A stretch of DNA of 21,394 nt. It comes from a virus. Of the stretch, positions 379 through 21,394 are shown in pieces. The DNA lies in the IMG/VR virus record IMGVR_UViG_3300048838_000817, positions 1-21,394 of that record. One strand, given 5' to 3'. Within the stretch, counting starts at the first letter, position 1. Every line of letters begins with the position of its first letter. Under the pieces are notes generated by a model. That model did not search any database, had not been told where the DNA came from, and was given only the letters and a program-made list of their open reading frames with translations. Position numbers and translations under genes: made by a program.

Positions 379-525
379 TTATGATTGTTTGATTTTTACT
401 TCTCCTGTGCCCTTGCATTTCGGACATTCTTCATAAATGTCCATGTGCCGGGCCTTATCTTTGATTTTTATCTGACCCCGCCCGTTGCATTTCGGGCATG
501 TTTCGATTTTTTGTTCTTTTGCCAT
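379..525 (-). CDS. Small twin CxxCxGxG zinc-finger protein (DnaJ-like repeat)
   Basis: ATG at 525 to TAA at 379-381 gives 48 residues. The protein is almost entirely two copies of the DnaJ-type cysteine repeat: CPKCNGRGQI near residues 11-20 and CPKCKGTGEV near 34-43, joined by a charged linker (KIKDKARHMDIYEE). Four cysteines in two CxxC pairs can bind one zinc ion, as a pair of such repeats does in DnaJ/Hsp40. There is no J domain, so this is a stand-alone zinc hairpin. In the family these modules hold unfolded protein or nucleic acid; the partner here is unknown. It lies 14 nt upstream of the truncated gene at the left edge and follows a strong stem-loop (556-614). The motif is clear; the function is inferred. 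Confidence 0.75.
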   Translation of the reverse strand: MAKEQKIETCPKCNGRGQIKIKDKARHMDIYEECPKCKGTGEVKIKQS

Positions 526-1100: not shown

Positions 1101-1120
1101 AATGAATGGTTTTGATTAGT

Positions 1121-1191
1121 GGCCTGGATGGGAATCGAACCCGCCTCCTCCGATTTATCAGATCGGCGCTCCGCCTCTGAGCTACCAGGCC
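1121..1191 (-). tRNA. tRNA-Ile (GAT)
   Basis: On the minus strand the acceptor strands GGCCTGG (5') and CCAGGCC (3') pair perfectly. TAGCTC opens the D arm. The anticodon stem CCGAT/ATCGG holds the loop CTGATAA with anticodon GAT and U33 in place. The T arm carries GGTTCGATTCC, but its stem has a C-A mismatch, so it is weaker than normal. It reads ATC/ATT codons. It is the last of three tRNA-type genes in a row on this strand. Confidence 0.85.
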
Positions 1192-1245
1192 CTGACACTC
1201 CACAAAAGTGTTACTCGATTAACTCTTGCTTTAACGTGTCATTGT

Positions 1246-1318
1246 GATGGAGCTGGGATTCGAACCCAGAACTGGGGACCGCGGCAGTCCCCAGTGTTAC
1301 CAATTACACCATTCCATC
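1246..1318 (-). tRNA. tRNA-like gene with an abnormal anticodon arm (isotype unclear)
   Basis: On the minus strand the acceptor GATGGAA/CTCCATC pairs except at the seventh position. The D arm GTGT...ACAC and the T arm CTGGG-TTCGAAT-CCCAG are perfect. The anticodon arm is odd: stem GGGGA/TCCCC encloses a 9-nt loop, CTGCCGCGG. With U33 kept, the anticodon would be GCC (Gly). If the extra C-G pair closes a 7-nt loop, the anticodon would be CCG (Arg), but U33 becomes G. The variable region is also one base short. The body resembles Bacteroidota tRNA-Gln in the D arm. It may be a degenerate tRNA, a frameshift-type tRNA, or a tRNA mimic. Confidence 0.65.
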
Positions 1319-1380
1319 CAGGTCCTATCTCCAATCTTTTGTCTAGAATTAAGACGGGAGATATTTTTGTGGACCCTTGT

Positions 1381-1452
1381 GACTCCGGCTGGATTCGAAC
1401 CAGCGCCCCTCTCATTAAAAGTGAGATGCTCTACCTACTGAGCTACTGAGTT
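1381..1452 (-). tRNA. tRNA-Lys (TTT)
   Basis: On the minus strand the D arm is GCTC...GAGC, the anticodon stem TCTCA/TGAGA holds the loop CTTTTAA (anticodon TTT), and the T arm is GCTGG-TTCGAAT-CCAGC. The acceptor (AACTCAG with CGGAGTC) has two mismatches, including the terminal pair, so it is somewhat degenerate. A stem-loop with a T6 run (1459-1502) lies directly upstream on the same strand. Confidence 0.85.
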
Positions 1453-1623: not shown

Positions 1624-1656
1624 GGGGTCAGCGGATTTTGTAAGCGTGCTGACCCC
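1624..1656 (-). terminator. Stem-loop, no clear T-run
   Basis: A perfect 9-bp stem (GGGGTCAGC at 1624-1632, GCTGACCCC at 1648-1656) with a 15-nt loop. The minus-strand flank is TTAATTAAAC, so it may be a processing or stability hairpin rather than a terminator. Confidence 0.45.
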
Positions 1657-1695
1657 ATGCTCTATTATCTATCTCTTATACTACCATTCCCTGAA

Positions 1696-1828
1696 AGGTT
1701 AAGTAATCCGCATTTTCACCAGTAACGTGCGGGTTCGAAGGATATCACTCATTTTTGTCCGTAATGCTGGGAAGAATGACTTGGCAAACCCAACAAAGTG
1801 ATTATATCCCGATCACTTACCGGTAACG
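1696..1828 (-). ncRNA. Structured RNA element, copy A (3' end of the 97-residue gene)
   Basis: This 133-nt stretch is a diverged copy of 2126-2258. Read on the minus strand it begins in the last codons of the 97-residue gene and continues as its 3' flank. Stems: AAGTGAT/ATCACTT around the conserved loop CGGGATATA, with the gene's TGA stop inside the stem; TTGGG/CCCAG; GGA/TCC after the conserved block ATTACGGACAAAA; and CCGCA/TGCGG. Several stems differ between copies by paired changes. One-base indels put the best-conserved block in different reading frames in the two copies, which argues for RNA rather than protein conservation. Function is unknown; a processing signal, protein-binding site or mRNA 3'-end element is possible. 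Confidence 0.6.
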
Positions 1829-2106
1829 GGTGACTTTTCCCAGAGTAATCCCAAAACAGGGACATCTGGATGGCAGTCTCCTGCCACAAGTCTGCTGCAT
1901 TCAGTCAGAGCGTAATTGCTCCAATGAAATGCAGTCTCTTTGCCGTAGTGGCTAACCACAAATCCCATGTGGTTATCCAACTGCATACCCGCAAGTTGTG
2001 CGAGTGCAGCGGCAAATATTTCTCCTTTAAAGCCGGAGATGACCATAGCAGACATTGAGCTACCAACAGATTGGCGATAGGTGTAAACCTTTTTAACTAT
2101 TAACAT
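1813..2106 (-). CDS. Hypothetical protein, 97 residues
   Basis: ATG at 2106 to TGA at 1813-1815. The middle is Ala/Gly-rich and hydrophobic (ISGFKGEIFAAALAQLAG, near residues 23-40), followed by a His/Trp-bearing part and a Pro/Leu-rich end (VPVLGLLWEKSPVTGK). No family is recognised. Trp is TGG and the gene ends in TGA. Translating TGA as Trp would extend it 38 codons to a TAA at the end of the structured RNA element, but the nucleotide evidence there favours a noncoding RNA. The last four residues, VTGK, resemble VTVK at the end of the next gene upstream (2243-2482), although the rest of the two proteins is unrelated; the shared end belongs to the repeated element. Confidence 0.5.
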   Translation of the reverse strand: MLIVKKVYTYRQSVGSSMSAMVISGFKGEIFAAALAQLAGMQLDNHMGFVVSHYGKETAFHWSNYALTECSRLVAGDCHPDVPVLGLLWEKSPVTGK

Positions 2107-2125
2107 TCGTTGTTAAAGTTTAAAG

Positions 2126-2258
2126 AGGTTAAATAATCTGCACTTTAACCAGTAGCCCGCAGTTTGGAAGGATACTGAGTCTTTTGTCCGTAATGCTGAG
2201 AGACCCTAACTTCGAGAACTCAACAAAGCAGCTATATCCCGGCTACTTAACGGTTACG
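2126..2258 (-). ncRNA. Structured RNA element, copy B (3' end of the 79-residue gene)
   Basis: This is the second copy of the 133-nt element at 1696-1828. It has the same order of stems: AAGTAGC/GCTGCTT around CGGGATATA (one G-U pair; the TAG stop of the gene lies in the stem), TTGAG/CTCAG, the conserved block ATTACGGACAAAA, and CTGCG/TGCAG (one G-U pair). Compared with copy A, paired positions change together: T-A to C-G, G-C to A-T, and the stop-codon stem differs at several pairs. The two copies are the same length although internal loops differ by one base each way. It lies between the 79- and 97-residue genes on the minus strand. Confidence 0.6.
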
Positions 2259-2482
2259 TTGAACGGGGTAAACCTGAAAGGGTTTTCCCCGCTGTCGTCG
2301 TTGATGTCCCCCCAAGAATCTGCTTGGAGTTCAATCAACCCTTCTTTAGAATTCCACGTAGGAATTCCTCCGAATAGACGACAGGCCTCAACCTCCGCGT
2401 CGTCTTGCGACATGGTTGAAGTGTTGTACTGCACTTTGGCAATGAAACCTTCGTGCAGTGTTTCAATTATATTCATTTGCAT
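2243..2482 (-). CDS. Hypothetical protein, 79 residues
   Basis: ATG at 2482 to TAG at 2243-2245; the start could also be the second Met at residue 3. The product is acidic and soluble, with EGFIAKVQYNTSTMSQDDAE near the N-terminus, ACRLFGGIPTW in the middle, and an Asp/Asn-rich turn (WGDINDDSGENPF) before a C-terminal beta-like strand (RFTPFNVTVK). It looks like a compact alpha/beta protein; no family is recognised. Trp is TGG. The stop lies inside the first stem of the structured RNA element copy B. A group of stem-loops (2521-2727) separates it from the next gene upstream. Confidence 0.5.
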   Translation of the reverse strand: MQMNIIETLHEGFIAKVQYNTSTMSQDDAEVEACRLFGGIPTWNSKEGLIELQADSWGDINDDSGENPFRFTPFNVTVK

Positions 2483-2685: not shown

Positions 2686-2727
2686 GGGGACAGCTCTAAA
2701 AGATAAACTCTCAATAGAACTGCCCCC
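2686..2727 (-). terminator. Terminator of the 102-residue gene
   Basis: GGGG-A-CAG (2686-2693) pairs with CTG-CCCC (2720-2726) around a 26-nt loop, 7 nt beyond the TGA stop. On the minus strand TTTTTAAAATAAAT follows directly. This is the best terminator candidate of the left arm. Confidence 0.65.
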
Positions 2728-2733
2728 TAGTTT

Positions 2734-3042
2734 TCAGAACTGTTCGTACTGAAATGTCTCTTTGTTATAGAAACAATTGTACATCATCGCTGATGTTTCA
2801 ATACAGAGCCACAGAATATCGACTGCGTGTTTGAAATCATCTGAATTAGGGCTAAATTTGCTGCAAGCAACTTGTGCTTGATCTGATGCTGCAGCTGTCA
2901 ACCCCATAAATTCATCTATTGAGGCGGCTCTAGCTCTCATCCGAAGAAAACCTTCGGCTGTTCTAAGAGCGAGCTCTGCCTCTGAATTGAGAACAAGTGC
3001 CCTATTGATTTGTTCCCAGGCTGTAGAGGAAATCTTTAACAT
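2734..3042 (-). CDS. Hypothetical protein, 102 residues, mostly helical
   Basis: ATG at 3042 to TGA at 2734-2736. The sequence is Ala/Leu/Glu-rich and looks helical throughout: NRALVLNSEAELALRTAEGF, then a central block (FMGLTAAASDQAQVACSKF) and a C-terminal helix with aromatic residues (AVDILWLCIETSAMMYNCFY). No signal peptide or clear motif is visible, and I do not recognise the family. Its TGA is a true stop: reading through would place coding sequence across the terminator at 2686-2727. Trp is TGG. It lies downstream of the 161-residue gene, from which a terminator-like hairpin (3161-3208) separates it. Confidence 0.5.
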   Translation of the reverse strand: MLKISSTAWEQINRALVLNSEAELALRTAEGFLRMRARAASIDEFMGLTAAASDQAQVACSKFSPNSDDFKHAVDILWLCIETSAMMYNCFYNKETFQYEQF

Positions 3043-3721: not shown

Positions 3722-3958
3722 CAAAACGACACCCCCGCCCCCCCTTTTGGAATCCAAACCCGAACAGGGGGTATTTTGTTAGGAGGGTACTGAGTCTATA
3801 ATTTCAAAAAAAATTTTTTTATTTTGGTACCACTTATATATTCTCAGAAATTTTTTAAAAATTTTTTAGAAAAAAATAATTTTTTAATAATTTTTAGTAG
3901 GTATAAATGCAAAAAGGCCCTTTAACCGTGTATTTTTTTAAAATTTTTTCTGTTTTTA
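3722..3958. other. Divergent intergenic region: C-tract, inverted repeat, A/T runs
   Basis: No gene is seen between the two divergent arms. The region holds a C-tract (ACACCCCCGCCCCCCC, about 3729-3744), an inverted repeat TTTGGA-A-TCCAAA just after it, and an AGGGGG stretch around 3773 that could pair with the C-tract. About 130 nt of very A/T-rich sequence with many A and T runs (3798-3960) follows. Such DNA is typical of promoters, bending sites and replication origins; nothing here decides between them. Confidence 0.45.
3917..3940 (+). repeat. Promoter-associated repeat motif, copy 1
   Basis: GCCCTTTAACCGTGTA followed by seven T. A near-identical motif (GCCCTTTAAGCGTGTAC followed by T8) occurs at 18473-18497. 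Both stand 14-19 nt upstream of the TTTG box of a TTTG-N20/21-TAnnTTTG promoter, so the motif may be a phage regulatory site or a terminator of upstream transcription. Confidence 0.55.
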
Positions 3959-3991
3959 TTTGGAGGAATAATTAAAAAGTTTGTATATTTG
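3959..3991 (+). promoter_or_regulatory. Bacteroidota-type promoter of the right arm
   Basis: TTTG (3959-3962), a 21-nt spacer and TATATTTG (3984-3991) fit the Bacteroidota sigma-70 consensus fully. Transcription would start near 3998, about 375 nt upstream of the first plus-strand coding sequence. Confidence 0.65.
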
Positions 3992-7051: not shown

Positions 7052-7559
7052 TCTACTTATTAACTTAGACTTAAACTTTTGGGAAGCTAATCCTAACTTA
7101 AAATATATATTCTCTGATCTTTATAATCAAGATCTGTCTATTTCAAAAGAAGAGTCTTCGAAGAAGATGTGATTTATCACTATGATGTATCATCCGAACT
7201 CTGAGTTAGCTGAACTTTATGAATCAGAAAGACTTGATATTTTAAAAGCTGATTACTATAAAGATTTGGAATGAGACGAAGAAGAAAATGAAGCATTAGT
7301 ACAAAAGTTTAAGCATACTTGTCTTTTAAAAAAGAAGAGGTTCTTATCTGACTGGGAAAAGAAATTAGAAGAACGAGATGCCTATATGAATTCTTTGCCT
7401 TATAATGAGGATAACTTTATTATTCTTGAAAAATTAATGGGCAATAGAAAATCTCTTTGGGATGCTTATCACGCTGCAATAGCTGAAGCCGAAAAAGAAG
7501 ATGGTGGATCTGCTTTTGGCGGATTGATCGAATCTCTTACTGAACAAGGAAAAATATAA
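7044..7559 (+). CDS. Hypothetical protein, 171 residues (TGA-recoded)
   Basis: ATG at 7044 overlaps the end of the endolysin gene by 8 nt; TAA at 7557-7559. Two in-frame TGA codons are read as Trp, after KEESSKKM and after YYKDLE; three further Trp are TGG. The protein is soluble and mostly helical with many Glu, Lys and Leu: an N-terminal region NLLINLDLNFWEANPNLKYI, a central charged helix (WDEEENEALVQKFKHTCLL, then KKKRFLSDWEKKLEERDAY), and a C-terminal Ala-rich helix ending in a Gly-rich loop (DAYHAAIAEAEKEDGGSAFG). No family is recognised. Its place between endolysin and the anchored coiled-coil protein suggests a late (lysis or virion) role, by context only. Confidence 0.7.
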
Positions 7560-8342: not shown

Positions 8343-8418
8343 TGCGCGTAGTTTAAAGAGTAAAACACCGGGTCCGAAAGGCCGGGATGGTGGTTCGAGT
8401 CCACCCGTGGTACGCCAC
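8343..8418 (+). tRNA. tRNA-like element, degenerate or unusual
   Basis: The D arm GTTT...AAAC and the T arm GGTGG-TTCGAGT-CCACC are perfect. The acceptor GTGCGCG pairs with CGTgGTAC only with a bulge and two G-U pairs. The anticodon arm is abnormal: CCGG/CCGG encloses a 10-nt stretch GTCCGAAAGG that can itself fold as CC-GAAA-GG. U33 would be the T before CCG, giving anticodon CCG (Arg), but the loop is too long. GCCACCA is encoded at the 3' end. It may be a decayed tRNA or a tRNA mimic inside the surrounding RNA. Confidence 0.5.
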
Positions 8419-8510
8419 CATGAGCAACGATATTAGACAGTTGCCAATATATGGGAAGCTCCCTGGGAAACCAGGGGGCGTCTGGGTCCGCCAGGTATAG
8501 ATTATATAAG

Positions 8511-8657
8511 ATGATACAATTTTTTAAATCGCAAGTCAACAGACTTATCAGTCGTTTATTCTCAAGGAGAAGAGCTGCTGACGTTCCTGAGCATACGACA
8601 AGCTCAACTTCCTGCAAAGGAAACTGTGACGGCTGCTCCTGCCGCATCTGAGATTAA
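8511..8657 (+). CDS. Possible small Cys-rich protein
   Basis: ATG at 8511 to TAA at 8655-8657 gives 48 residues with one TGA read as Trp; without recoding it stops at 8649. A basic amphipathic N-terminus (MIQFFKSQVNRLISRLFSRR) is followed by a polar linker and a cysteine cluster, CKGNCDGCSC. A second frame (8512-8694) is also open once TGA is Trp. It reads like protein in its last 30 codons (PAKETVTAAPAASE..., MELVEVHA) and ends in TAG-TAA, but lacks a convincing start. One frame may be a frameshifted continuation of the other, or the region may be RNA. The call is tentative. Confidence 0.35.
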
Positions 8658-8763
8658 CTCAGAAGAAATGGAGCTGGTGGAAGTGCACGCATAGTAACCT
8701 ATACGTCCCTATTTATTAATTAATTTTTTCATCTGCTTTAAATAGCGAATCTTATATAAGACG

Positions 8764-8787
8764 TCGGTTCGATTCCGACCGGATCCA
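8764..8787 (+). other. Orphan tRNA T arm and 3' acceptor strand
   Basis: GTCGG-TTCGATT-CCGAC is a perfect T arm, followed by CGGATCC and A as the 3' acceptor strand and discriminator base. No matching 5' half (GGATCCG plus D arm) lies within the preceding 75 nt. The nearest partial partner is GATCC at 8282-8286, at the start of the GC-rich RNA region, which would make a roughly 500-nt tRNA-ended RNA. Otherwise this is a tRNA remnant. The stretch 8698-8763 shows nothing else. Confidence 0.5.
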
Positions 8788-8802
8788 CAAATATTTTAAT
8801 TT

Positions 8803-13622: not shown

Positions 13623-15957
13623 ATGATTATGCCTACTACTCCATGAGGAGTAATACCTGTATCCCCATATGCGTTCGTAGAAGAAATAGAAGTACTTTCA
13701 CCTTATAGTAGAGAATATTTACCGTATTGAAAAGAACAAAAAAGACGTTGTATTGAGGGACATTGAGTAGGTGGAGACTGGATGCCAGGTAAGCTTTATT
13801 TTTATGTCAACTTTGCTACTATTAAACGAAACGTAGATGGCTCAAAGTTTAAGTTTTATTCCAGACCATTATTAAGAGATCTTGAATGAGAATGGTTTAG
13901 GTTAGTAGAAGAAGCTAGAGGATTTTCTGGATTTGAAAATGATCCAGATAACTCATGTAACGAGTTATTATTAGATCCTGTTCTGACTAATGAAGATTTA
14001 GTAGAATTATGTAAGAATGAAAAAGGAGAAATAAATTATGTAAAATATTACAATTTATTTAAAAACGATAATACAAGAAAAGAATATATTCATCCAAGAG
14101 ATTATTTGAGAAGGACGTTCCCACAGTCGATGGGGCGTCCTTTGCATTTTAATCAAGCTAAGAATATTCTTATGATTGGTTCTCGTGGGTATGGTAAATC
14201 TTATTCTGTTGGAGCGGGTGTGGTAGCGCACGAATGGTTATTTGATGGTATGACACATTATACTCCTGAAGGGATTGCTAACCCTCCTGCTGTCGAAGTT
14301 ATTGTTGGTGCTTCAGATGCTAAGTACTCTACAGATATTCTTGATAAAACTCGAGCTTGTGTTGAAAAATTACCCGGTGAATTTACCACTGCTGATAAAA
14401 CAATTCCTTCTCCACTAAGTAAACATTATGTTGGTTCGTGAGGACCAGCAAGACAAGATTTTAGGCTCTAAATCGATGATAAAACATCGTACATATAAAG
14501 ACAACGAATTTGCAGCACAAGGTTCTCGTTCTACCATTTCTGTATATGAAGAGATTGGTATGTTCAGTAACTTAATTAGAACCGTAAATGCTAACGTAGA
14601 AACACAAAGAGACAGTACTTCTAAGTTTGGTACCAGTATATTTATAGGTACTGGGGGTGACTTTGAAGGCGGCGGTACACGAGATGCCCACGAAATGTTT
14701 TATCATCCTGATAAATTCGATCTTTTGATTTTTGAAGATGAGTGGGAAAGCCGTGGAAAGATTGCTTATTTTATTCCAGCTTACCGAGGTCTTAATCAAT
14801 TCAAAGATAAGAATGGTAAATCTAATGAGGAGGCAGCACTTAAGTACCTATTAGATTATCGCGGCAAGTTGCAGGAAGATCAAAGCAGTAAATCAGTTTA
14901 CGCTAACGAACTTCAATATCGTCCGATAAAACCCAGTGAAGCTTTTTTATCTAGAACAGGTAATATACTTCCAGTTGTAGAAGCTAAAAATAGAAAGTCA
15001 GTTCTGCTTGAAAATCTGGGTGAAGACTATTCTTTATTGTCAAAGAAAGTACACCTTTCATTTAATTCCAAAAGTACTTACGGAGTAGATTATGAAATAG
15101 ATACAGCTAATCAACTAACTCCAATTGATAAATTTCCGTGGAAAGAAACTAACAAAGAAGGAGCTGTTGTAATTTACGAATTCCCATTGACTAAAAAAGA
15201 TGGTACAGTACCAGATGGATTGTATATAATAGGTCACGACCCTGTTGCGTCTGATTCTGAAACTGGACAATCTTTATCTGTAACCATTGTTGGCAAAACT
15301 AAGAAGTATTGAGATGAATTTGGACATGATGAGATTGTAGCTATATATGTTGCACGACCATATTCAGGAAGAGAAACAGTAAATGAAAACTTAATGAAGC
15401 TTTCAATGCTGTACGGCAATGCTAAAATTTATTTTGAAAACTCTGTTGGTAACGTAAAAGAATACTTCGAAAAACATAAGAGACTTGATTTATTAGCAAA
15501 ACGTCCTACAACAATATTTACAAAAAAAGCTTCTTATTCTACAGGTACTCCCACTAACGAATACGGTTATCCTATGTCAAATAGATATTTTAAACTAGAT
15601 GGTTTACAATATCTTCGTACCTGATTACTTGAGTCTAGAGGACAAGACGGCGCAAATGTTATGCGGAATATTGATAGAATATGGGATGTAGCTACCTTAG
15701 ATGAAATTATTTCATTTGACTTAGAGGGTAACTATGACCGTGTCATGGCATTGATCGGATACGTAGTTGGACTGAATGAAACTTACAACCAATATGAAAA
15801 AAAGATAAAAGATATTTCTTTACATAATAATTTATCAAGCAGTGAACTTGATTTTATAGTAAATAATAAGAGACTATTTATGGGGTCAGCGTCTGTAATG
15901 GAAACTAGACAAGTTCTTTCTGATTCTAATATAGACTTTAATAAATTTTTTAAATAA
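13623..15957 (+). CDS. Terminase large subunit (TGA-recoded, with a +1 frameshift)
   Basis: The gene starts at ATG 13623, 3 nt after GroEL, and ends at TAA 15955-15957; seven in-frame TGA codons are Trp. The first frame carries the ATPase P-loop (GSRGYGKS, near residue 183) and runs to TAA at 14469-14471. The second frame, open from 14419, continues with GSKSMIKHRTYKDNEF, a Walker B-like VYEEIG, and a nuclease-type motif (YIIGHDPVASDSETG). A single +1 shift between 14442 and 14468 would join them into about 777 residues, in line with crAss-like terminases. The shift may be an indel at the T4 run (14459-14462), a mutation, or programmed. The protein packages DNA into proheads through the portal encoded next. 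Confidence 0.88.
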
Positions 15958-18464
15958 TGAAATCTGAATTAATATATTCAAAAAGGCTCAGCGAAAGAGA
16001 CAAACGTAAAAACGATTTTGAGTGAGCTAAAAAAACAATGGATTTCTTAATTGATGCTTCTACAGAATCAAAAAGCTTAGAGTATTATAAAATGCTTTCT
16101 AATTATCGTTTATATAATAATGTATTAGATCAACGAGATTTTGAAAGAGACTGTAATTTACTGGGTATAGAGGTTGGTCAGTTTAAGGATGAAATCTTAC
16201 CGTACAATAAAACTTATAATAAAATTCAAGTTTTACTTGGAGAAGAACTAAAACGACCATTTGACTACTTTACTCTTATTGTTAATGAAGAAGGAGTCAG
16301 AGAAAAACTTGCTATGAAAGATAGCATGATTTATGACTATTTATTTGGTGTAGTAGAAGCAATTGAAACTGAGACAGCAAATGCTATAAAACAGACAATG
16401 CAACAAATTCCTGATGAGCAAAAGCAAACAATGAGTGAACAAGAAGTTGCTCAAATGGAACAGCAAATTCAACAAGAAGTACAGGCAAAAGTTGCAAAAA
16501 AACTTGAGTCAATGCAATCTCCTATGGAAGTAGAAATGGCGTTACGTCAAGGTACTTTGCATAAGAAAGAAAAAGCCGGAGCTAAGTTATTAAAATATTT
16601 AACTCTTGAGCAAGACATTATCGATAAGAAAAATGATTCATTTAAACATGGGCTTATTTCAGGAAAACAGATTGTTTGGACTGGAGTAAGAAATGGCGAA
16701 CCTGTAGTTGATTTGATAAACTCTTTGAATTATTTTGGTCATAAATCTGAAGAAGTTAAATGGTTCCAAGATGGTTTATATGGCGGAGTAAAAACTACAA
16801 TGTCAATTCCTGATGTTATAAGTAACTATGGTCAATTTCTTTCACCTAAAGATTTAAAGAAAGTAGAAGATTACGGAAGTTTATTTACAACTGATAAAGT
16901 TGAAGTAAGCAAGACAATGAAATATCCTAATGATGATATATTCTCAATACAAGAACGTACATTAGCTAAGTCTACTGAAGGTTCTTATGGAAGTTCTGAT
17001 TCATTACTTGGGGATATCGATGTATATCACTTAGAATGGAAAACTCTTAGAAAAATATATTTTCTTTCTTTTCTTAATGAGTACGGAGAACCACAAATGG
17101 ACTTAGTCTCTGAAGATTTTCCTATTCCTACTTATGCAGAAGTGACGAATGAAATCAATGACCACGGCATAAAAAAGAAAATCTATTACTTTGATAACAT
17201 GACTGCTGAAGAAGCATGGATTGAAGATGTTTGGTCTGGTGTTAGAATAGGAGAAGATATTTATTGTGCCATAGGAAGGAAACCTTATCAAATAAGAACA
17301 AAAGATAACCCGTATAAAGCTAGATTAGGATATCACGGAGTTAATCACTCTGCTATGAATGCACCTAATATATCATTGATGGACAGAATGAAACCTTTTC
17401 AATATTTGTACTTTTTAGTTATGCACAAATTAAAGAGTATGATTGCAAAAGATAAAGGTAAGATATTCCACTTTGATAGTACTATGGTGGATCCTAAGAT
17501 AGGATTAGAAAAAACATTGTATTATCTTGACCAGCTTGATATAGACTTCTTTAACCCTTTAATGAATGCTGAACAGCCTGGCGCGTATCAGCGCGGAAAA
17601 ATTACTACAGCTACAGATCGTTCCAACGCTCAACATATTATTAACTATGTTAATTTACTTGCGGCTCTTGATGAACAAATAGGTGAAGTTGCTGGTATTA
17701 CAAAACAGAGAGAGGGTCAAAGTTCTACTTACGAAGCTGTAACAAATAATCAAACTGCTATTGTGCAGTCTACTACAATTACCGAAGTGTATTTTCAAGT
17801 ACATAGTAAATTGTGGGAAAAAGTCTTAAACTCTTTGATTCAAACTGCACAATGGTGCTACAAAGATAAAGGAGTTAGAAAGCAGTACATTTTAGATGAT
17901 GGAACTGTTCATATATTAGAGACTACCCCAGAAGATTTAGCAGATGTAGATTTAGGTATATTTATTACTAACTCTAGAAAAGATGCTGAAATATTTAACC
18001 GTCTTCGTTCTATTGCTGAATTTGCTCTTACACATGATAAAGCTTCACTTAGTGATGTAATTAAGATGTTTAAAGCTGAGTCAATAGCTCAATTAGAGTC
18101 TTATGTAGAAGCTTCAGAAAGTCTGAAAAATCGTCAGATTCAAGCACAACAAGAAAGAGAGGCAGAACTTGAGCAGATGAAAATAAAATCTGCAGAGGAA
18201 CAAGCTGCCTTACAACGTGAGCATGAAATTGAGATCGCTATGATTAAAGCTGGCTTAGATCGAATTAATCAAGAAGCACAAGAAACTACGGACGGAGTTA
18301 ATATGAATCCAAGAAATATTGATAATCCTGAAGAGCTCACTCAAAATCAAAAATTACTAGATTTAAAAGAACGGGAAATGCTTTTAAAGCATTCTCAAAA
18401 AATGGCAGAAATTAAATCGAAAGAAAAAATTGCTGCTCAAAAACCAAAACCAACTAAAAAATAG
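15957..18464 (+). CDS. Portal protein
   Basis: I start it at ATG 15957 (overlapping the terminase stop by one base), which needs one TGA as Trp (KNDFEWAKK). The next ATG at 16038 would lose 27 residues. It ends in TAG; 835 residues, the size range of crAss-like portals. Features typical of these portals: an N-terminal helical region with NKTYNKIQVLLGEELKRPFD, a Gln/Glu-rich insertion (near residues 145-180), a stem/wing region with Trp-rich beta strands, TDRSNAQHIINYVNLLAALD and VAGITKQREGQ late in the protein, and a C-terminal charged coiled coil (EREAELEQMKIKSAEEQAA). It forms the ring at the capsid vertex and binds the terminase. All other Trp are TGG. Confidence 0.88.
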
Positions 18465-18472
18465 TTAAAAAC

Positions 18473-18497
18473 GCCCTTTAAGCGTGTACTTTTTTTT
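18473..18497 (+). repeat. Promoter-associated repeat motif, copy 2
   Basis: GCCCTTTAAGCGTGTAC followed by T8, matching the motif at 3917-3940 except for two bases. It starts 9 nt after the portal stop. ACGC/GCGT could form a short stem before the T-run, so a terminator role is possible, but that pairing is not kept in copy 1. Confidence 0.55.
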
Positions 18498-18514
18498 AAA
18501 AATATTGAATTTTA

Positions 18515-18546
18515 TTTGCATTAACTTTTGTTTAAAATTAATTTTG
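18515..18546 (+). promoter_or_regulatory. Promoter for scaffold and capsid genes
   Basis: TTTG (18515-18518), a 20-nt spacer and TAATTTTG (18539-18546) fit the Bacteroidota consensus. The -7 element lies directly before the first ATG (18548), so transcripts from it would start at or after that codon. The in-frame ATG at 18581 would then serve. Confidence 0.55.
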
Positions 18547-18547
18547 T

Positions 18548-19627
18548 ATGGAAATTCCATTAGAAGATCTTATTTCCTTTATGGATGAACCGACTACTGT
18601 TCCTAATGATCCAACGCCTCCTAATACTAACTCAGATAAGTCTGATATAGACGATGATGACGATGAACCAGTAATAGATGATGACGATGACGATACAAAT
18701 GACCCACCTAAAAGTGACAATATTGACATCTCTTCGTTAACTCCTGATTCAAATATTCATGACATCTTTGAAACAGTTAAAAATGACGTATTACTTCTTG
18801 ATGAAGATTTTAAATTCGACGGTACTGTTGAAAGTTTAAAAGATGCGTTTGTAACAACATATGAGAAACTAACTGAAAAAGCCAAAGAATCTCTTCTAGA
18901 ATCACTTCCTGAAGATTATAAGCTTTTAGTTAAGTACGGTTTAACAACTAAAAGATCAGTTGCTGATTTCTTTGAAGATAATAAAGAGATTAGCTATGAC
19001 TGAGAAAATATCGATTTAACCGATGTTTCAACTCAAAAATCAATTATCGCTGAATATCTTAGTTTAACAACTAAGTATAATGATGAAAAGATTAGAAGGT
19101 ATATTGAAACATTAGAAAATAATGAAATGCTTGCAACTGAAGCATCTGACACTTTGGCAGAATTAATTCAATTGCAAGAAGAGAAAAAAGCTGAAGTACA
19201 AAAAAATCTTAGCGAATTAGAAGCTAATCGTGCTAAAATAGCTGCAGAAGAACGAAAAACTTTTGAGACATTAATTGACGAAGATCAAACTATTCCTAAA
19301 GAAAGTAAATCAAAGTTAAAAGCTTTCCTCAATAATAGGCAAATATCTTCTAAAGATAACACTGTCACAAGTAATTTCTCAAGAAGTCTTAGAGCAGTTA
19401 TAAAAAATCCTAAGCATCTTGTCCAATTAGCGGATATCCTCATGGATTACGATGAAACTAATGGGTTTTCATTTGATAAATTAGTACAAAGAAAAGGTAC
19501 TGATAAGTTGAAAAAAATCAAAAAAAATATAGAAGAAGTTATAGATCCAAAAACTGGAACTGTTAAGACATCTTCTCCAAAGACTAAGGATTCCTTTGAC
19601 TGGGAAACTTGGGCTAAATCATTTTAA
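18548..19627 (+). CDS. Capsid scaffold-like acidic coiled-coil protein (TGA-recoded)
   Basis: ATG at 18548 to TAA at 19625-19627, 359 residues, with one TGA read as Trp at 19001-19003 that joins two halves. The N-terminal 60 residues are extremely acidic (runs of four to six Asp around DDDDDEP and DDDDDDT). A mixed helical part follows, then a long coiled coil (about residues 195-240: TLAELIQLQEEKKAEVQKNL and on) and a Lys-rich C-terminus. An acidic, helical protein encoded between portal and major capsid protein is the usual place and make-up of a scaffold protein. A start at ATG 18581 would remove 11 residues and agree better with the promoter. One further Trp pair near the end is TGG. Confidence 0.75.
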
Positions 19628-19667: not shown

Positions 19668-20797
19668 ATGCCTGCTGGAAGTTCATATATTATAAAACAT
19701 TACGATGGTTTTGGTGGTAATTTCTTAGATTCTCAATATTTGGGTAATTCTTATGATACTGGCAAACCTCACATGTTTGAAAATTCTCTTATGAGAATTT
19801 ACTCTGCTGAAAGCCGTTTTATGACGGGTAAATTGCTTGTCGGAATGACAGGTGCTAAAGAAGGTGGAGTAACAGAAATTGATACTGAGGTATATCGTTG
19901 GAGACTCCAAGGTGCAGAATTCAAAGCTGCTCGCGTACTTGAAGTACTTGATGATTCTAACACAGCCCCAGGTCTTAACGGAACTACTTTCCGTGTAAAA
20001 TTGGATCTCGACTATTTCCACTTCCCCGATGTACTTTTGGGTGAAGATCCTGATTATCCAGTTCAAGTTGTAGATGGCCCAATTCCTGATGGTATTGGCT
20101 CGATCTATGTATTGAAACTGCAAGGTGACAATCCTACTAAATTCTTCCCAACTGAATATCTTCAGATTGGTCGTGAATTTACGAAAGGTTGGACTAGCGT
20201 ACCTTCTGAATACAACCAATGGTTTGGTACTCAACAGTATCCTAACTCATTGATGCTTGAAGGTCAAGTAGGTGCTTTCGCACAATCTCTGACTATCACT
20301 GACAAAGCACTCCGCGATCAAGGTCGTTTGGCGTGGGAATTCATGTACACAGATGCTAACGGTAAAACTCAGAAATCTTCTAAGTTTATGCCTATGGCTG
20401 AAAACAAAATGTGGGATGAACTCTATCAGTCAATGGAAGCTCAAGCTTGGTATGGTACTAAGCAGACTCAAGCTGGCCCCGATGGTTACTGGATTAAAAC
20501 TGGTCCTGGTATCCGCGAGCAATTAAAAGATTCTCATATCGAGTACTACAACGGTGCTTTAACAGAAAACAAATTGAAGGATTATCTGATGGATATTTTC
20601 TTCTCTCGTACTGATGAAGCTGATCGTAAAGTTGTAGCTGTAACTGGTACGCTTGGTTCTATGATGTTCCATGACATGTTGGCTGCTGCTGCTAGCTCAT
20701 TCTTTACTCTTGATACACACTTCATTGACCGCTACAATGCAGGTCTTGCTGGACGTCACCTTTCTTATGGTGCACAATTCCGTCACTATTTACTACT
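19668..20797 (+). CDS. Major capsid protein, exon 1
   Basis: ATG at 19668 follows a 40-nt gap. The coding sequence reads 376 codons plus 2 nt up to the intron at 20798, and the rest lies beyond the window. It is rich in Gly, aromatic residues and Asp (SSYIIKHYDGFGGNFLDSQY at the start, KMWDELYQSMEAQAWYG near residue 250, VVAVTGTLGSMMFHDMLAAA near 330). Gene order after portal and scaffold, size, and the intron inserted in a conserved gene all point to the HK97-type major capsid protein of crAss-like phages. All seven Trp are TGG; TGA is avoided, as expected for the most strongly translated gene. Without splicing, translation would stop at TAG 20811-20813. Confidence 0.8.
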
Positions 20798-21394
20798 GCT
20801 GACCGCTTGGTAGTGACGTTAAAAAATTCTCTTAATTGCTGGGACATCTCATTGAGACAATCAGCAGCCAAGCTTCGCCGTCTGCGAAGAAGGTTCAACG
20901 ACTAAGATTAATTCCAACACGATACTTTAGGTATTCGATATTATGTCAAAGATTACAAAGAATTCCCGCCATTTATTTCTTTCAATGGTTTTAGGGGATG
21001 GTCATTTAGATAAATATGGCCAACTTAATTTACTACATTCTGATAAACAATTAGAATATTTAGAATGAAAAGTAAAATTGCTTAAAAAGCATGGTATAAA
21101 TGTAAGTGAAATAAAACACAAAATAAACAATAAAAATTATATTGCGTTTTATGCCTCTACAAAAGTTTATAATTTTTCCAAACTTTATAGAAAAATCTTA
21201 TATACACCTAAAAAAACATATCCATTAAAACAGTTATTAAAACTAACACCATTGCATATTGCAATTTGGTATATGGATGACGGATCTTTAAGTGTATTAA
21301 AAAATAAAGATGGATATATTAGAGGCAACACTTTAACATTACATACAAATATTTCAAAAGAGGAAAATCAAACAATAATTGATTACTTCAATTT
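20798..21394 (+). mobile_element. Group I intron in the capsid gene (3' part outside the window)
   Basis: The 5' splice site is well supported: the exon end TTACTACT (20790-20797) pairs with GGTAGTGA (20809-20816) over 8 bp, with the conserved U-G pair at the splice site. Core elements follow: P (AATTGCTGGGACA, 20834-20846), Q (AATCAGCAGCCAAGC, 20859-20873), a P6 hairpin CTTCGC/GCGAAG, and R (AAGGTTCAACGACTA, 20890-20904). The endonuclease gene begins 38 nt after R. The S element and 3' splice site must lie past the right edge. Confidence 0.92.
20943..21394 (+). CDS. LAGLIDADG homing endonuclease in the capsid intron (partial)
   Basis: ATG at 20943, open to the right edge (at least 150 residues). 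The first LAGLIDADG-type motif is LSMVLGDGHLDK near residues 12-24 and the second is IAIWYMDDGSL near 116-126, each with the acidic residue that binds metal. The spacing is that of single-chain or 'THY/intron' type enzymes found in organelle and phage introns. One in-frame TGA (21066-21068, YLEWKVK) is read as Trp, so the endonuclease is adapted to the recoded phage. It lies in the intron's P8 region. The enzyme cuts capsid genes that lack the intron. Confidence 0.88.

Follow-up and report, generated by a model that had tools for sequence, protein, structure and literature searches.

What is the sequence that occurs twice on the minus strand of the virus record IMGVR_UViG_3300048838_000817, each time after a small gene, and what might it do there? 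An earlier note had described two 133-nt copies of an apparently new structured RNA at this locus. Within the window, by which we mean the whole 21,394-base record that was analysed, both copies lie where that note had placed them, and the homologous stretch extends to 137 nt in each (c1 and c2, Table 1). Here we describe the setting of the two copies, the fold that they share and the readings of its function that can be set against one another.

A repeated element at gene junctions of a crAss-like phage

We read the record as a fragment of a crAss-like phage, based on its Crassvirus major capsid protein, its portal and terminase families, and its GroEL and LAGLIDADG endonuclease families; identity of the capsid to IMG/VR relatives is 56–65%. 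In the left 3.8 kb, small ORFs on the minus strand are accompanied by three tRNAs and by several GC-rich, long-looped hairpins; the remainder is a plus-strand structural arm. On self-comparison, c1 and c2 form the best-supported repeat of the window (75% identity, E 8.8e-19 by BLAST). They can be aligned from about CGT at the 5′ end to TTAACCT at the 3′ end with no net change in length. An unfiltered covariance-model scan of the window detected no third copy.

Both copies are located at the junction that follows a small ORF: c2 lies between two ORFs and c1 precedes a terminator-like hairpin. The two upstream genes are unrelated to each other, as had been proposed. The 79-aa and 97-aa ORFs look coding, since their frame ranks top on codon usage, and searches found no relatives of either or of a 161-aa ORF. 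The end of c2 is about 16 nt from the ATG of the 97-aa ORF, the next start codon downstream. Downstream (3′) of c1 there is no notable ORF for about 240 nt, just hairpins and tRNA.

Table 1. Positions, in the window, of the element, its predicted helices and neighbouring features
Feature	Positions	Strand	Details
Structured RNA element, c1	1692..1828	-	137 nt
Structured RNA element, c2	2122..2258	-	137 nt
Orphan ORF upstream of c1	1813..2106	-	97 aa; 135 aa, to 1699, if TGA = Trp
Orphan ORF upstream of c2	2243..2482	-	79 aa
TGA within P1 of c1	1813..1815	-	Stop of 97-aa ORF (standard code); Trp under apparent late-gene code
TAG within P1 of c2	2243..2245	-	Stop of 79-aa ORF
Invariant block in c1	1753..1769	-	CAGCATTACGGACAAAA
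Invariant block in c2	2182..2198	-	CAGCATTACGGACAAAA
P1 hairpin, c1	1796..1818	-	AAGUGAU (1818-1812):AUCACUU (1802-1796), loop CGGGAUAUA
P1 hairpin, c2	2226..2248	-	AAGUAGC (2248-2242):GCUGCUU (2232-2226), loop CGGGAUAUA
P2 hairpin, c1	1765..1795	-	UGUUGGG (1795-1789):CCCAGCA (1771-1765)
P2 hairpin, c2	2194..2225	-	UGUUGAG (2225-2219):CUCAGCA (2200-2194)
P3 hairpin, c1	1708..1732	-	CCGCA (1732-1728):UGCGG (1712-1708)
P3 hairpin, c2	2138..2162	-	CUGCG (2162-2158):UGCAG (2142-2138)
Pseudoknot Q, c1	1740..1809	-	GGAUAU (1809-1804, P1 loop):AUAUCC (1745-1740)
Pseudoknot Q, c2	2170..2239	-	GGAUAU (2239-2234):GUAUCC (2175-2170)
Helix K (tentative), c1	1716..1826	-	UUACCG (1826-1821):UGGUGA (1721-1716), in P3 loop
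Helix K (tentative), c2	2146..2256	-	UAACCG (2256-2251):UGGUUA (2151-2146)
Terminator-like GC-rich hairpin downstream of c1	1624..1656	-	GGGGTCAGC...GCTGACCCC
GC-rich left-arm hairpins	556-614, 949-983, 1459-1502, 1531-1597, 1624-1656, 2629-2668, 2686-2726		
tRNA genes	1119-1452		Downstream of c1; nearest tRNA about 240 nt from c1
In-frame TGA regions	13656-15879, 15981-16035, 18548-19624, 20943-21392, 7062-7557		

Among catalogued RNA families the element has no match. No Rfam 15 model reached its gathering score, and the best weak match in the region was BTnc231 at 16.9 bits (gathering score 80.4), on the plus strand. Phage and plasmid collections contained no relative. Pattern scans of IMG/VR with different conserved blocks returned either nothing or unrelated, mostly coding sequence, as judged by inspection and the covariance model, and a pattern scan of GTDB genomes gave 56 matches that were all judged to be chance after model screening and inspection. 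The covariance model found nothing in ten capsid-relative phage records, nor in 395 genomes from the class of a Prevotella genome. A weak blastn match of c2 in the phage records L009 and L010 (E 0.066) was rejected as chance; it falls inside the capsid gene. The element family has two members on one phage fragment and stands as a candidate, not as an established family, and the lack of relatives in the collections searched is not proof that it is unique.

Several other features of the record are described for their own sake. The GC-rich hairpins between the small left-arm genes have stems of 8–11 bp and unusually long loops, and some are followed by T runs. A 48-aa ORF (379-525, minus strand) contains two CPKCxGxG knuckles that arose through an internal duplication, and has weak similarity to anti-termination Q-like families. 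A 52-nt intergenic direct repeat (3911-3962 and 18467-18518, 75% identical), starting with AAAAAGGCCCTTTAACCGTG and AAAAACGCCCTTTAAGCGTG, may be a common promoter or terminator. At 20790-21394, similarity of the major capsid gene to its relatives is lost past about 20789-20813 and a LAGLIDADG homing endonuclease ORF comes next, which suggests an intron within the capsid gene. At 14434-14453 the terminase frame is shifted by one base relative to intact relatives, and this may be a sequencing error, a mutation or a programmed shift. A tmRNA-like gene at 8484-8790 (plus strand; Rfam tmRNA match E 1.9e-7, under the gathering score) lies downstream of a degenerate tRNA-like stretch at 8345-8409. 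In the related phage record L009, ARAGORN located a tmRNA with a 33-residue tag (L009:1183-1463), and a tRNA with anticodon TCA that was called SeC (L009:1804-1880) is a candidate UGA suppressor.

A predicted minus-strand fold shared by both copies

All helices possible in both copies were enumerated and their pairs were counted. Five helices can be formed by c1 and c2 alike: the hairpins P1, P2 and P3, a pseudoknot Q and a weaker pseudoknot K. Every one of the 31 pairs is kept in both copies (62/62 cells), with six compensatory double changes. P1, a 7-bp stem around CGGGATATA, differs by double changes in 3 of its 7 pairs, and P2 (7 bp) and P3 (5 bp) carry one each. The three stems with paired changes reported in the earlier note are thus all present, and Q and K are new additions to that layout. 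Q is nearly invariant between the copies and so contributes little covariation support. K joins the 5′ end to the P3 loop and contains the remaining double change; 6-bp helices with one such change are common in shuffles.

P1 (7 bp) and Q (6–7 bp) together have the arrangement of an H-type pseudoknot in both copies; H-type geometry played no part in the choice of helices. The predicted crossing loops are about 2 nt and 1 nt, and the third loop is about 51 nt long and accommodates the P2 hairpin along with an invariant A-rich stretch. The block CAGCATTACGGACAAAA, 17 nt long and partly unpaired, shows no difference between c1 and c2. It lies in differing reading frames in the two copies through one-base indels, in agreement with what had been noticed earlier.

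The covariation withstood statistical testing. The best non-overlapping set of shared helices comprises 6 double changes and 32 bp; 6 double changes were reached in 4 of 2000 column shuffles, and the base-pair total in none of the 2000. Per shuffled alignment, 0.001 helices with 7 bp or more and 3 or more double changes are expected. The weight is uneven, with P1 carrying most (0.001 expected per shuffle), P2 some (0.16) and K little (0.57). When pairing partners were slid by 1–3 columns, just 0 or 1 double change remained. RNAalifold, unaided, recovered the three hairpins P1, P2 and P3 and added a closing helix of 3 bp. Read on the plus strand, the alignment gives 17 bp with 1 double change, versus 32 bp with 6 on the minus strand; because the pairing collapses on the plus strand, the feature is to be regarded as a minus-strand RNA. 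The minus strand is also the strand of the flanking genes. The nested folding energy of c1 and c2 is no better than that of shuffles, and the minimum-energy folds of the two copies differ; the summed stem energies come near the nested minima, though they are not better. Taken as a whole, the comparison shows two homologous copies with a common predicted minus-strand fold and compensatory changes, and we consider it very probable that the structure is real. The proposal of a new structured RNA is borne out by compensatory changes beyond those in shuffles, by strand asymmetry, by substitutions that show no codon-position bias, and by the Rfam result.

Stop codons, apparent TGA reassignment and possible roles of the element

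The earlier note had further observed that the stop codon of each upstream gene sits inside the first stem, and had linked the element to termination or 3′-end fate. Both codons do lie inside P1, but the TGA in c1 acts as a stop only if the standard code applies. The terminase, the 5′ end of the portal gene, a scaffold-like ORF, the LAGLIDADG ORF and the region 7062-7557 all contain TGA in frame, and neither TAA nor TAG interrupts these frames ahead of their ends. Relatives carry Trp at 29 of 45 aligned TGA positions (one gap counted), and table 11 gene calls are fragmented in this phage. Judging from these alignments, TGA has apparently been reassigned to Trp in the late genes. TAG terminates other genes of the phage, and the TAG in c2 is clearly a stop. 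The TGA in c1 may encode Trp, which would give the longer frame listed in Table 1. In the ORF at 2734-3042 the TGA is immediately followed by a terminator-like hairpin, and in genes of the left arm TGA may have kept its role as a stop. Since TGA is recoded in this phage, the association between stop codon and first stem is not safe. The inferred tie to termination or 3′-end fate is left unsupported, as the c1 TGA is likely to be Trp and the occurrence of the same frame in two copies is a coincidence of about 1 in 3. For c2, which ends so close to a start codon, a tie to the downstream gene is equally possible.

Confidence in any function is low. The reading that we prefer is that the pseudoknotted element acts in cis on mRNA at gene boundaries. 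A compact pseudoknotted RNA, present twice in an early-type left arm, would be carried on the minus-strand mRNA of small genes; the P1/Q pseudoknot would form and the 5′ end might dock into the P3 loop through K. A ribosome finishing or passing the upstream gene would open P1 and Q, and the knot would refold once the ribosome had gone. The refolded knot could then serve as a barrier or a protein-binding site that determines how stable the neighbouring message is, how it is processed or how far it is expressed. We put the probability of a cis role at roughly 0.4, and no higher because position is its sole evidence; TGA recoding weakens the part of that evidence which concerns where the element lies with respect to the upstream stop.

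Position relative to a downstream gene leads to a different reading, in which the element is a 5′ leader regulator, an aptamer or protein site of the operator or riboswitch type, and c2 controls the 97-aa ORF. The short distance to that ATG suits such a role, as does an alternative helix (AGUGAU:GUUACU in c1, AGUAGC:GCUACU in c2) that is kept in both copies and excludes P1; by competing with P1 it might give a two-state switch. A place directly upstream of a regulated gene fits c2 only, however, and fails for c1 with its long stretch devoid of notable ORFs. The alternative helix is also within chance, at 0.57 such helices expected per shuffle, and we view leader regulation as rather unlikely. 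It is also unlikely that the element is a small RNA, processed twice from mRNA, that acts in trans by binding a protein or RNA of host or phage. Structured RNAs that occur in several copies and bind proteins are commonly seen, and the compact predicted fold and the identical, partly unpaired 17-nt block would suit one, but neither copy is clearly framed by a promoter-like or terminator-like site.

The pseudoknots and invariant unpaired segment also bring to mind an undescribed class of self-cleaving ribozyme, which would cut phage transcripts at gene boundaries or ahead of the tRNA cluster. Small ribozymes typically show nested pseudoknots and an invariant unpaired core. Theta ribozymes adjoin tRNAs in gut phages, mostly those of Bacteroidota (PMC10879173). 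Against this, the element matches no Rfam ribozyme model, lacks hammerhead, pistol and hatchet cores and any HDV-like arrangement common to both copies, and in c1 is separated from the closest tRNA by about 240 nt; we find self-cleavage doubtful. Broader still, and improbable in our estimate, is the idea of a new catalytic or ligand-sensing RNA class exclusive to a crAss-like lineage that recodes TGA. On one form of this idea, the UGA in P1 of c1 would tie folding to the recoding state of the phage: with UGA as stop the knot would refold, and with UGA as Trp ribosomes would traverse the entire element as far as the TAA on its 3′ edge.

If the frames did continue past TGA (as Trp) in c1 and past TAG in c2, the copies could encode related C-terminal peptides. 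Both frames are open for 37 codons to a common TAA, which in c1 lies at 1699 at the 3′ edge of the element, and the late genes of this phage read TGA as Trp. In-frame substitutions are nevertheless spread over codon positions as 10/12/8, 4 of the 21 codons that changed are synonymous, and control frames do as well in residue identity (15/30 and 18/30, against 16/33 here), so that none of these three measures reveals protein-level selection past the stops. The best conserved block is shifted out of frame by indels, TAG terminates other genes, and the stems stay paired. On these grounds a readthrough peptide was rejected, and a coding tail is very unlikely. Programmed readthrough or frameshifting likewise failed, as no constraint on protein sequence was seen beyond the recoding site. 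A frameshift element was also discarded, as a GGGAAAA run upstream of c1 does not fall in a slippery frame and the distances of the runs are unequal in the two copies. A template/variable pair of a diversity-generating system was rejected as well: differences between c1 and c2 extend beyond adenines.

The element could in principle be a DNA feature, either a recombination site of the integron attC type or a single-strand hairpin recognized by a transposase. Repeats that follow unrelated small genes at a spacing of 430 bp resemble gene cassettes, and like attC sites the copies are structured repeats placed right after such genes. attC sites are single-stranded DNA palindromes, whereas the element, with its one-strand G-U pairs and the loss of pairing on the opposite strand, pairs on one RNA strand only. 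The ends of attC follow the order RYYYAAC...GTTRRRY on an imperfect palindrome; here the end motifs are reversed (GTTRRRY...RYYYAAC), and three tandem hairpins take the place of one long, strand-symmetric palindrome, all of which makes a DNA site highly improbable. Least credible of all is a plain duplication that diverged and kept its pairs by luck, for which the sample of two sequences and the ordinary nested folding energy might be cited, and which the shuffle tests and slid controls counter.

Comparison with known structured RNAs

The two papers found that mention both crAss-like phages and structured RNA report, by title and abstract, no folded RNA element, and such elements of these phages appear little described. 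If functional, the element would provide a handle on early-message control in an abundant group of viruses, and a fold to seek in unassembled metagenomes.

GOLLD and ROOL are ornate structured RNAs of bacteria and phages, several hundred nucleotides long and in some cases near tRNAs. They are in Rfam and are far longer than the element, which does not match them. Among small ribozymes, a minimal HDV-like ribozyme is about half the length of the element, and the CUGANGA (hammerhead), pistol and hatchet cores are absent from the minus strand of 1460-2760. Theta ribozymes are small, pseudoknotted, HDV-like ribozymes of Bacteroidota gut phages that are often found beside tRNAs and are linked to stop-codon recoding (PMC10879173). 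The phage described here likewise shows recoding, and tRNAs lie near the element, but the HDV strand order (P1, P2, P3, P1′, P4, P2′) does not emerge from the comparison of both copies. A loose HDV descriptor matched c1 with weak, G-U-rich helices and gave no match at the corresponding place in c2, where the 5′ strand cannot pair likewise. In the tRNA-associated subset of theta ribozymes the cleavage site is at most 5 nt from the 3′ end of a tRNA, far closer than the tRNAs are to c1.

Three-stem H-type pseudoknots, such as the frameshift elements of coronaviruses, combine short crossing loops with a long loop that contains a third hairpin, and the predicted fold has both features. It differs in having no in-frame slippery heptamer at a fitting distance. 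Furthermore, with the presumed stop inside stem 1, a ribosome would have opened that stem already. The operator of T4 gene 32 consists of one small pseudoknot, located in the leader of a single gene; the element is larger, with three hairpins, is present in two copies at gene junctions, and has no known binding protein. In the T4 case, binding of a phage protein to an H-type pseudoknot in the mRNA controls expression (PMC535899), and by analogy protein binding of this type is a plausible working mode for the element.
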